39,382 nt of DNA from an uncultured Lachnospiraceae bacterium. Lineage in GTDB: Bacteria; Bacillota; Clostridia; Lachnospirales; Lachnospiraceae. Location of the stretch: NCBI GenBank assembly GCA_947175175.1, contig CAMWLV010000014.1:1-39382 (forward strand). The letters are read 5' to 3'. The position numbers and the translations under genes were made by a program. The notes under the pieces are model-generated. The model was not told the DNA's origin. It made no database searches and was given only the letters and a program-made list of their open reading frames with translations. Below are positions 3,550-6,766 of the stretch, one piece after another (positions within the stretch are counted from its first letter, which is position 1; each line of letters starts with the position of its first letter).

Positions 3550-5379
3550 TTAAAGTTTATGATATACTTTTTCTGGCAGAAACAATGTTATGGCTGTTCC
3601 CCTGTCGCGTTCCGAATCAATCGTCATACCATACTCATCCCCATAGCACAGCTTCACTCTCTGATTGATATTGTATAACCCGATGCGCTCCCTTTTCCCA
3701 GGATTCTTTGCGACAATGTCCGCGCGCAGGCGATCCAGTGTCTCCAGATTCATGCCGCAGCCATTGTCGGACACTGTGATACATATTTTGCCGCTGTCTG
3801 CAGGGCGCGCAATCCGAACGATCACCAAACCTCCTGTCTCTTTCTCCTCCAGTCCGTGCAGAATCGCATTTTCCACAACAGGCTGCAGCAGAAGCGGTAA
3901 AGTGATACATTTGCACACATCAATGCCGTCATCAACCGCAAACGCATAATCAAATTTCTCACCAAACCGAAGCTTTTGTATTTTCATATAGATTTCAATA
4001 TGGTTTAACTCATTTTGAAGTGACGTAAATGCTGTACCACTATTTTCCAGCACATAGCGCATAGACTTACCCAGAAGCTTAATAGCAGTCGCTGCTTCCC
4101 TATCCCCCGCGGTATACGCTTTCATCCGTATCGATTCCAAGGTATTGTACAAAAAGTGGGGATTGATCTGGCTCGCAAGCATCTTGAATTCCATCTTCTG
4201 CTGTTCATTTGCCAGTATCTGTTCGTTTAGTATCGCCTTATACATCAGCGCATCCTTCTCCTTGATCCTTTGCACCATGACTTGCAGGTCCGAAAAAACC
4301 TCTGAAAGCTCATCATCACCACAGACATTCTCCTGAAAATCATAGTCCTCATTGCTCGCCTGATGCATTACACGCCGAAGTGCAGACATGCGCCCTGCAA
4401 GGTGTTTGGAAAAGAACCCTATCAGAATACCGGGAACCAGTATTGCCAGCAGGATGATGATCAGACAGATTCCAATAATCCCCTGTATGTTTTCATAATA
4501 TTTATCATTGACTGTGCAGATATAGATCCTGGAATCGGAATGGTACAGAGAAAGCGTGGATACACATACATAACATGTGCTGTTTTGAAATTTTCCCTTT
4601 CCGATATACTGAAAATAATTCTCGTCGTAATCAATGTCGATCAGCTGCGGTTTTCCATAGTTCGCTCTGTCAGATGCATAAAATACAACACCCTCATCAA
4701 CTGATGCAGTGCTTCGGTATTCTGCACTGTCAATACGCATTTTCAGGTAATTATCACTGATGCGGATCACCAGCACAGCATTATAGTCGGAATTGACGAG
4801 CGGAATCCGCCTGATCAGACACAATCCCCAATACCGATTGCCGTACTCATCAACGGTTTCCTTTTCCTTCCAGAAAACACTTGCCTGTGATACTGCTTTC
4901 TGATACCAGTCTGTCTCTGCAGTCACTTCATCTACACCATGGTACTGTTTATACTCATAGATATCAGGATTATCACAATAGATGTCAATCCGTTCGATCT
5001 CCGTATAGTGGTTCACATAGCTGTCAGCGGTAGGCAAACATGAGTTTACCGCTTCCACAAAAATCTCCTCAGAAGGAAATCTTCCCTTCAGGACAGATAC
5101 CACTTCCTCGTTGAAAGAGAGTTCTTCCGAAATGTTATAAGCCTGAGTTGTGATCTCAAAAAGTACTGTTCTCACCCGGAGATTATCTGACTCGAGCAAA
5201 TCCCTCTGATACCTCGCCAACAGCTTGTAAGTATTGCTCACCAGAAATATACCGATCAACAGCATCGGTAGAAAAACGGCCAGCATATAAACTATATACA
5301 GCTGTCTGCGTATGCTCGATTTCCACTGAAACCGAAGTGGAACACGCCCTGTCTGTGCCTGGCTTACATTAACATCCAT
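3550..5379 (-). CDS. YesM-type sensor histidine kinase
   Basis: Membrane sensor kinase, about 609 residues. Order: first helix at about residues 27-47; extracellular Cache-like sensor region at about 50-290; second helix at about 301-324; HAMP; His_kinase domain with phospho-acceptor His408 in QINPHFLYNTLES; HATPase with N box QPVVENAILHG (Asn504), DNGCGM (538-543) and a GLYNINQR G2 region. This is the LytS/YesM architecture. The start at ATG 5379 has an AGGGAG ribosome site and overlaps the receiver gene by 11 bases; longer in-frame starts at 5397 and 5445 run deeper into the receiver gene and look less likely. Kinases of this family normally partner an AraC-type YesN regulator. None is present, and the only receiver nearby has no output domain. 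Confidence 0.93.
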   Translation of the reverse strand: MDVNVSQAQTGRVPLRFQWKSSIRRQLYIVYMLAVFLPMLLIGIFLVSNTYKLLARYQRDLLESDNLRVRTVLFEITTQAYNISEELSFNEEVVSVLKGRFPSEEIFVEAVNSCLPTADSYVNHYTEIERIDIYCDNPDIYEYKQYHGVDEVTAETDWYQKAVSQASVFWKEKETVDEYGNRYWGLCLIRRIPLVNSDYNAVLVIRISDNYLKMRIDSAEYRSTASVDEGVVFYASDRANYGKPQLIDIDYDENYFQYIGKGKFQNSTCYVCVSTLSLYHSDSRIYICTVNDKYYENIQGIIGICLIIILLAILVPGILIGFFSKHLAGRMSALRRVMHQASNEDYDFQENVCGDDELSEVFSDLQVMVQRIKEKDALMYKAILNEQILANEQQKMEFKMLASQINPHFLYNTLESIRMKAYTAGDREAATAIKLLGKSMRYVLENSGTAFTSLQNELNHIEIYMKIQKLRFGEKFDYAFAVDDGIDVCKCITLPLLLQPVVENAILHGLEEKETGGLVIVRIARPADSGKICITVSDNGCGMNLETLDRLRADIVAKNPGKRERIGLYNINQRVKLCYGDEYGMTIDSERDRGTAITLFLPEKVYHKL

Positions 5380-5773
5380 ACCTCTCCCTATAAGCATATA
5401 ACTCGATAATATTCTGCACACGCCGCCTGATAATCTTAGGCTCAAATGGCTTAATTACGATATCTGCCACCTTGTATTCATATGCCTTATTACTTGTCTC
5501 CTCCGAGTCATCATCCGTGACGATCACCACTGGAAGTCTATCCAGGAGTTCTTTTTTCTTCATATATTCGAGCACACCAAAACCACTGATCACGGGCATA
5601 ATAATATCCAGCAGTACCACCGCCAGATTCCGCGCATCTTTCTCCATGATATCAATCGCCATCTGCCCGCCAGATGCCTCGACAATCTCATATTCCTCCC
5701 TGAATATATCCCCCAGCATATACCGGTTGATTCCCTTATCATCCACCACAAGTATTTTATTTTTTGTCTTCAC
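5369..5773 (-). CDS. Single-domain response regulator (receiver only)
   Basis: A 134-residue CheY-like receiver with nothing appended. The acid pair is Asp11-Asp12 (KILVVDD), the phospho-acceptor is Asp56 (VVLLDIIMP), the switch residue is Thr86 (VIVTDDD) and Lys108 lies in IVIKPFE, so all phosphorylation residues are present. The start is GTG at 5773; a later ATG would delete the acid pair. The ribosome site is weak (GGGG about ten bases upstream), so translation may depend on coupling with the TetR-HPt gene 45 bases upstream. Single-domain receivers commonly shuttle phosphate between kinases and HPt proteins. Placed between an HPt-bearing regulator and a kinase, that is the likely role here. 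Confidence 0.92.
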   Translation of the reverse strand: MKTKNKILVVDDKGINRYMLGDIFREEYEIVEASGGQMAIDIMEKDARNLAVVLLDIIMPVISGFGVLEYMKKKELLDRLPVVIVTDDDSEETSNKAYEYKVADIVIKPFEPKIIRRRVQNIIELYAYRERYGC

Positions 5774-5818
5774 CCTTTGTAAACCCCGTTCCCATTTTAC
5801 ACAAAAAATTGAATAACA

Positions 5819-6766
5819 CTACAGCAATACAGTCACCATCCTGCAGGCTTCCACAACATCTTCGTACGCTTCTGCCGCACCGTCAAGCCCACCAGGACGC
5901 AGAATTTCCACCAACACACTAAGCCTGCTGCGCACTTCGCCAAGCCCCAGGTTTGCAGCCATCCCTTTCAGCCCATGTGCGTATTCAAAGGCATTTTTCG
6001 TATTTCCTGATTGAATCGCTTCCCCCAAAGCATCAAAATCAGGATCCTCAAAAAATTCAACCAGAAAATTCCTGTAGGCATCTTTGTTTCCCTTCATGCG
6101 TTCCAGTGCCTTGTCCACATCGACTCCCCGCTCCTTGAGCCTGTCCCACAATGAATCGTTTCCCTTTCCTGAACAGATTCCATTATAGATGATTCTGTTA
6201 TGTGTCGCCAATAGCGATTTTGCCTTTTCCATGTCAATATTCTCATTCGTACATACCATCTGCACGAATCCCAAAAAAGAAGCCGATAAAAAGAAAGCTG
6301 TTTCCCTTGCATTTGCGATATTCGTTTCCCCCCGCGCCATCGCATTCTTTAGATATTCCTCTATCCGCAGGATAAATGGGTTGACATCAATTTCCATATT
6401 CCCATGATACATGATCTGCATATAGATTGCCTCCGTCTCAAAGGAATACAGCTTTTCCAATAACCTTTTTGTAATCCTGTCCAAATTCGTAAACAAGTCC
6501 GCATCTTTTGAGTACACTTCATCCATTGCAATGAGAAAAGGCTTTGCCTGTAATGCCGCTATTGCTTCTGCCAAAGCATTCTTATCCCCAAAACGCTGGT
6601 AAATAGCCGAGTTCGAACAGCCGCTTTCCTTTGCCACCCTGCGGATCGTGAGATTGTCGTACCCCTCCCGGTCAATAATGGCAATCGCAGTGTCAAGAAT
6701 CTTCCTCGCTACAGTGTCGTCAATCAGCATCTCCCTGTTTTGTAATTCTTCTTCCCCATACACCAT
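5819..6766 (-). CDS. TetR-family regulator fused to an HPt phosphotransfer domain
   Basis: A 315-residue protein with two recognisable parts in one uninterrupted frame. Residues 18-65 are a TetR helix-turn-helix (ILDTAIAIIDREG, then LTIRRVAKESGCSNSAIYQR and FGDKNALAEAI). Residues about 70-195 form a helical TetR ligand/dimer-like region. Residues about 205-315 are a histidine phosphotransfer domain: GVDVDKALERMKGN, then EYAHGLKGMAANLGL, in which His264 is the expected phosphorylated residue, then a C-terminal helical hairpin. The start ATG at 6766 has GGGGGA about five bases upstream and lies 18 bases after the scpB stop. I know of TetR proteins and of HPt proteins, but not of this fusion as a described class. 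Inference: phosphorylation of His264 by the adjacent receiver tunes DNA binding. A sensing-only HPt cannot be excluded. Confidence 0.88.
   Translation of the reverse strand: MVYGEEELQNREMLIDDTVARKILDTAIAIIDREGYDNLTIRRVAKESGCSNSAIYQRFGDKNALAEAIAALQAKPFLIAMDEVYSKDADLFTNLDRITKRLLEKLYSFETEAIYMQIMYHGNMEIDVNPFILRIEEYLKNAMARGETNIANARETAFFLSASFLGFVQMVCTNENIDMEKAKSLLATHNRIIYNGICSGKGNDSLWDRLKERGVDVDKALERMKGNKDAYRNFLVEFFEDPDFDALGEAIQSGNTKNAFEYAHGLKGMAANLGLGEVRSRLSVLVEILRPGGLDGAAEAYEDVVEACRMVTVLL

Follow-up and report, generated by a model that had tools for sequence, protein, structure and literature searches.

The stretch of DNA analysed here (39,382 nucleotides from an uncultured Lachnospiraceae bacterium; hereafter the window) encodes a TetR repressor and a histidine phosphotransfer (HPt) domain as one real single protein. 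We regard as established the fusion, its conservation, its co-occurrence with a receiver (REC), sites of operator-like sequence that are shared, a conserved RNA gene and an intact CsrA. We infer that the RNA is transcribed, that the protein binds DNA and takes part in phosphotransfer, that phosphotransfer changes DNA binding and in which direction it does so, and that CsrA is the target of the RNA. On balance we incline slightly towards the reading that the protein would be a TetR repressor coupled to a phosphorelay and directed at a CsrB-like RNA, with REC as its partner.

The fused protein and its distribution

The gene (P0001; 5819..6766, minus strand) reads as 315 amino acids in one frame. 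The first-pass annotation had described a TetR helix-turn-helix and a C-terminal HPt domain in this frame and had suggested a profile search; both models match above their Pfam cut-offs. TetR_N (PF00440) covers residues 23-69 (6560..6700, minus strand; E 1.7e-12, 47.4 bits against a cut-off of 24), and Hpt (PF01627) covers residues 243-302 (E 2.6e-6). Pfam and the structure model together place the HPt domain at residues 205-315 (5822..6154, minus strand), with His264 (codon 5975..5977, minus strand) as the predicted phosphoacceptor. The TetR C-terminal (dimer/ligand) domain, about residues 71-200 (6167..6556, minus strand), is all-helical and has the TetR fold. Structure prediction, also suggested there, gives confident folds for both parts. 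The whole-protein model has a pLDDT of 80.2 and, among the best 1000 Foldseek chains, aligns over residues 15-200 with complete TetR structures; modelled on its own, the HPt part reaches 93.9, and 21 of its 22 best structure matches (again among the best 1000 chains) are named HPt proteins, the other one having no informative title. The 11 distinct PDB sequences found by sequence were all aligned through the TetR part.

An assembly or sequencing artefact joining two genes might be suspected in a draft genome of 249 contigs. We consider this refuted, and its probability negligible, because the whole fused frame is present in 11 further genomes at 48-79% identity and with no internal stop; the local sequence error that the annotation had named as a danger is thereby excluded.

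The genus was sampled with 38 genomes, among them the window's own (G000). The genome survey that had been proposed found the same fusion in 14 of the 38, and a REC ortholog in those 14. Two copies (G017 and G001) are cut by contig ends, the G017 contig beginning within the gene. The fusion lies 3' of scpA-scpB in the window and in the 12 fusion loci with a readable scpB. His264, Lys267 and Gly268, which form the HxxKG motif, are invariant in all 14 fusions.

Five genomes (G061, G022, G015, G060, G021) carry an HPt-only gene in the slot of the fusion, with neither TetR nor REC; the proteins are 57-62% identical to the HPt part of the fusion, and the His264 motif is intact in all three of them that were aligned. 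In the 19 remaining genomes, the 16 scpB regions inspected have other genes in the slot, often one that we take to be uridine-kinase-like; scpB was not matched in G008, G014 or G030. In a tree of 34 genomes rooted at the midpoint (ScpA, ScpB, a phosphoesterase-like protein and DacF), fusions occupy deep clades and surround the nested HPt-only clade (bootstrap 78), and for this reason a joint loss of TetR and REC in the HPt-only clade appears favoured. Parsimony requires four changes for TetR, three for the HPt slot and five for the RNA described below (with G011 and G033 scored as lacking it); the root state of TetR is ambiguous under this criterion. A family-wide scan of 396 other genomes, one of them of the same genus, returned no fusion at E 1e-14, and in 24 of them a match to the HPt part only; the scan took at most five candidates per genome, and a TetR-HPt fusion of independent origin would escape it.

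The receiver and a proposed phosphorelay

REC (5369..5773, minus strand; PF00072, E 1.1e-18; Asp56 codon at 5606-5608) is a separate single-domain protein of 134 amino acids and the predicted phosphotransfer partner of the fusion, so that receiver and DNA-binding output do not share one protein, unlike in a classical response regulator. Its ortholog (at least 66% identity) is present in 14/14 fusion genomes and in 0/24 others (Fisher p 1e-10, uncorrected for kinship); the second-ranking receiver has 51% identity and is part of a frame of 368 amino acids. In G001, REC stands at the start of another contig than the fusion. Residues D11, D12, D56 and T86 are invariant in the 13 aligned orthologs and K108 in 12/12; the G017 sequence was omitted from the alignment, its frame being broken by a frameshift or an error. 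The tie of the fusion to the adjacent receiver, anticipated by the annotation, is thus borne out by co-occurrence and by phosphoacceptor residues kept on both sides. As to the omitted sequence itself (L055, G017:C1:848-1251), which comes from a close relative, its 5' part appears frameshifted.

This conservation bears on a reading without phosphotransfer through the adjacent REC, in which REC would dock as an anti-repressor or the HPt domain would serve some other receiver, for instance a REC-HD-GYP protein. Stand-alone HPt genes indeed lie directly 5' of REC-HD-GYP genes at two other loci of the same genome, L058:8718-10218 (G000:C54) and L147:7599-9108 (G000:C152), so that the lineage habitually pairs HPt with REC where no DNA-binding domain is involved. 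A docking surface, however, would need none of the residues His264, Lys267 and Gly268, nor Asp56, Thr86 and Lys108 of REC, all of which are invariant, and we hold this reading to be improbable. The two loci also suggest that the HPt-then-REC gene order is a local habit of the lineage, since stand-alone HPt genes precede REC-HD-GYP genes there, and that the added TetR is the new part. The Hpt match is above the cut-off in C54 and below it in C152; the genome has ten Hpt-like matches in total, six over the cut-off, and its hybrid kinases with C-terminal HPt domains include one above and two below.

A second rival holds that the HPt domain is merely tethered: a ligand-driven TetR would repress the RNA, and the HPt domain would be a phosphocarrier in its own right, profiting from co-expression or from being brought to DNA, its phosphorylation having no effect on binding. 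It is in keeping with the five genomes that retain HPt without TetR, with a modelled TetR C-terminal domain that is complete and could bind a ligand, and with the linker (residues 196-205), where conservation is lowest among the five blocks compared. Against it, the fusion and REC always occur or are missing together (14/14 against 0/24), which would be unexpected were the TetR part independent of the relay; furthermore, among the 14 orthologs the TetR C-terminal domain is more variable than the HPt domain, with 14/125 positions invariant against 46/110 in residues 206-315 (27/53 in the helix-turn-helix, residues 18-70). We judge the tethered HPt domain to be unlikely, if more credible than docking.

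For the preferred reading, in which the relay does act on the repressor, we propose the following. The complete TetR protein would bind palindromic operators resembling RGAACRWYGTTCY through its helix-turn-helix; the fused HPt domain would exchange phosphoryl groups at His264 with Asp56 of REC; and one of the cell's hybrid histidine kinases would feed the REC-HPt pair. Either the phosphorylation state or the HPt-REC complex may alter the geometry of the dimer and hence DNA binding.

The histidine kinase adjoining REC (window 3550-5445), which has a His_kinase domain, was considered as a dedicated partner and rejected as a conserved part. The same kinase still lies 3' of HPt in G015 and G060, which are without TetR and REC, and no match to it follows REC in the stretches fetched from G002, G029 and G020. 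Kinase genes ending in a receiver adjoin the RNA copy in G011 (L254:10167-11981, G011:C16; HisKA, HATPase_c and Response_reg by Pfam) and in G008 (L213:1856-3148, G008:C148; called by eye). We treat these as candidate phosphodonors and only as a lead, because no hybrid kinase adjoins the RNA at the ten other loci compared.

A further single-domain receiver, 49% identical to REC, is found in G029:C70 (L155:4339-4761); a lone copy of the RNA element lies near L155 3129, about 1.2 kb from it.

Operator-like palindromes and a candidate small RNA

The operator sequence was derived from the promoter of the fusion gene itself. Four deep-branching genomes (G020, G023, G001 and G029) have, in the gap 5' of that gene, a TTGACA/(A/C)ATAAT promoter followed by AGAACATTGTTAC-like palindromes at the start point, with further AGAACATTGTTAC-like copies close by, so that an operator-like palindrome resembling RGAACRWYGTTCY lies just 3' of that promoter. 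The window's fusion gene lacks a separate promoter, being 18 bp from scpB, and no operator was seen near the gene in the window's clade. The exact pair pattern also retrieved an intergenic place beside serA in G034, G020 and G014. As a genome-wide signal the operator pair was rejected: it occurs at 10 places in the 38 genomes against 16 for a reversed-pattern control, that is, with no enrichment. The operators were judged by position, conservation and synteny because the raw pattern count does not exceed the control.

The serA-side loci were reached by synteny through a neighbouring gene of 94 amino acids, except that G034, G020 and G014 were reached through the motif itself and are not counted as independent. 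What lies 3' of the operator-like sites is an unannotated candidate small RNA whose promoter is conserved and whose presumed transcript measures about 160-340 nt, as a rule ending in a terminator-like hairpin (two G029 copies have no clear end).

A sequence profile of this RNA (R1) finds it in 19 of the 38 genomes. It matches in 12 of the 14 fusion genomes, or 13 of 14 with a divergent G011 copy found by hand, in all five HPt-only genomes, in G008 and G014, which are too incomplete to be assigned, and in none of the 17 other genomes without a fusion or HPt gene. With G008, G014 and the G011 copy left out, the distribution is 17/19 against 0/17 (Fisher p 2e-8). Since R1 missed the G011 copy, absence elsewhere holds at the sensitivity of the profile; an RNA promoter beside the 94-aa gene was likewise sought in 13 of the 17 unmatched genomes and found in none of them, G004 showing one repeat-like match there. 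Among the fusion genomes, G033 (71% complete) gave no RNA match. The window itself holds no copy, and the window's genome has one at G000:C63:2395-2665 (E 4.9e-35). More than one match was obtained in G020, G023, G029, G001, G014 and G008, as neighbouring pieces in G008 and partly so in G014.

The RNAs share repeated GUGUAAAAGG(G)A elements. Hairpins with G-rich loops exceed shuffled sequences in 16 of 23 RNAs (p 0.015 or less) and do not in the other 7; in G020, G014 and the second G020 copy one such hairpin is the terminator. GGA triplets by themselves show no more than a mild enrichment (p 0.05 or less in 6 of 13 RNAs). For seven sequences RNAalifold predicts 43 pairs, and a conserved secondary structure is lightly supported because only 5 of these changed on both sides. 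Six RNA loci submitted to Rfam matched no family above the gathering score, only below it. A frame of 28 amino acids was noticed by eye in the G034 RNA, the one copy in which short frames were read.

Sites at the RNA promoter were scored with a matrix trained only on the fusion-gene sites of G020, G023, G001 and G029; G001 thus supplied training sites, from its other locus. The top sites in G013, G002, G005, G007 and G001 score 14.8-16.3 bits, the 95th percentile of shuffles being 8.5-9.7. A second site about 21 bp further on reaches at least 7.3 bits in 6 of the 7 fusion genomes tested and is missing in 5/5 HPt-only genomes. In the latter, the promoter site is full in G061 (14.8 bits), weak in G022 (8.0 bits, p 0.10) and at 2.7 bits in G015, G060 and G021; by these scores, the operators look eroded where TetR was lost. 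Upstream sites of at least 11.3 bits occur at -89 to -120 in 10/10 further RNA loci and lie outside the search profile; where a locus was located through R1, independence from that profile holds for the upstream sites only, and L222, having no promoter match, was left out of this count. The serA-side RNA lacks the start-point site in G001 and the upstream site in G034.

The RNA might instead be under another TetR with a like operator, the fusion having other targets. Palindromes of the similar form GAAC..GTTC adjoin a different TetR-like gene at L162 (G007:C4), L163 (G018:C226) and L164 (G025:C2), and because of them a second TetR could bind; in addition, the RNA and strong sites are present in G008 and G014, in which no fusion was found. 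These two genomes are, however, incomplete (66% and 78%) and give no scpB match either, G018 and G025 gave no match for the RNA, the operator comes from the fusion's own promoter, and the sites decay in the HPt-only clade. We find this explanation very improbable; the fusion itself probably controls a family of small regulatory RNAs. Its main target would be one or more copies of the stand-alone RNA, whose operators usually lie 90-120 bp 5' of the -35 box, at the start point and some 20 bp beyond it; deep-branching species would in addition have the repressor act on its own promoter. One finding is contrary to this mechanism: in the HPt-only genomes the RNA and HPt persist where TetR and REC are missing.

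In the window, the best matrix match (3579-3591, 15.0 bits) falls in the 3' end of the kinase gene and is not significant by shuffling, which gives 0.34 expected matches of at least 14 bits.

CsrA and known systems

CsrA is encoded in 35 of the 38 genomes, including G000; it was not found in G015 and G021, both with the RNA. In G000, csrA follows the FliW gene and its product keeps, by position, Leu4 and Arg44, which a review (PMC7652899) highlights in the CsrA-RNA structure. The review also reports RUACARGGAUGU as the SELEX consensus of CsrA and, for Bacillus subtilis, lists the flagellin leader among the targets of CsrA (PMC7652899). The motif AAAAGGA occurs in the leaders of 11 of 13 flagellin-like genes near csrA, the 13 genes coming from nine of the ten genomes read and no chance level being attached to the count; one of the genes (G000) is identified as flagellin by Pfam and the others by their N-terminus. 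In the G000 leader it lies within GUAAAAGGAUUUAC, where by eye a hairpin with an AGGA loop is possible. The leader of REC carries the element UUGUGUAAAAUGGGA (5790..5804, minus strand), an exact match to the element of the RNA repeats, shuffling predicting 0.62 matches with up to two mismatches; six genomes of the window's clade have it at this place and, by the same pattern, G007 does not.

Because the RNA repeats resemble elements of the flagellin leaders and of the REC leader, the RNA likely sequesters CsrA in the manner of CsrB. In the proposed circuit, the RNA with its GUGUAAAAGG(G)A repeats and G-loop hairpins would most likely bind CsrA away from its targets, freeing the mRNA of flagellin and perhaps that of REC. 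Genomes lacking the RNA can have CsrA and the flagellin element as well; the link is only suggestive because CsrA is not tied to the distribution of the RNA and G032, one of the genomes lacking it, carries the flagellin element.

TetR proteins are otherwise ligand-driven one-component regulators. The fusion agrees with them in TetR_N, in the full TetR fold, in palindromic operator-like sites at the start point and in apparent self-control in deep-branching species; it differs by its C-terminal HPt domain and its tie to a receiver gene. With the HPt phosphocarriers (HptB, Ypd1 and the HPt domains of ArcB and BarA) it shares the HPt fold and the HxxKG motif, and its HPt-then-REC order recurs at the two loci of the same genome mentioned above, but here the HPt domain is fused behind a DNA-binding repressor. 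In PRD-type regulators a histidine is phosphorylated by the sugar PTS; these too are transcription factors under phosphohistidine control, whereas a His-Asp relay, not the PTS, is implied here. The DNA-binding end of a relay is normally on the receiver, fused to a DNA-binding domain. We advance, tentatively and with somewhat less than even confidence, that the fusion may be a new class of transcription factor, in which this end would lie on the HPt side and phosphate passed from REC to the TetR-fused HPt domain would switch a repressor of redundant CsrA-titrating RNAs.

The logic would be that of the Gac/Rsm (BarA-UvrY/Csr) circuit of Gammaproteobacteria, in which, according to PMC7652899, a relay sets small RNAs with GGA-bearing repeats that would titrate CsrA. 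It differs in that a TetR-HPt repressor takes the place of the UvrY/GacA response regulator and in that the RNA loci searched reached no Rfam family. The host also has FliW, whose presence is described as anti-correlated with BarA-UvrY genes (PMC7652899).

The annotation's remark that no such class is described agrees with our literature search, which covered few subscription journals and named no TetR-HPt protein; none is described in the available parts of PMC3018481 and PMC12471899. The same search named no CsrA-titrating RNA of Lachnospiraceae. In what is available of PMC3720852, CsrA is placed at a motility locus of motile Eubacterium and Roseburia without mention of small RNAs, and how CsrA is set in these gut bacteria is left open; according to PMC4894983, many CsrA-bearing bacteria are without homologues of the antagonizing RNAs.

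If correct, the proposal would describe a new way of wiring a signal relay to gene control: the joining of an HPt domain to a one-component repressor would demonstrate that a phosphorelay can take regulators of the ligand type into its service. A target is named as well, a candidate new RNA family in gut Lachnospiraceae, and the presence of this RNA beside FliW makes the setting of CsrA in motile gut bacteria directly testable. Bacillota would then have a Gac/Rsm-like circuit, alongside FliW, that arose independently of its gammaproteobacterial counterpart.

We also note the number of CsrA matches per genome, which is 4-8 in G028, G019, G016 and G026 (no RNA match) against 1-3 in the other genomes with CsrA.
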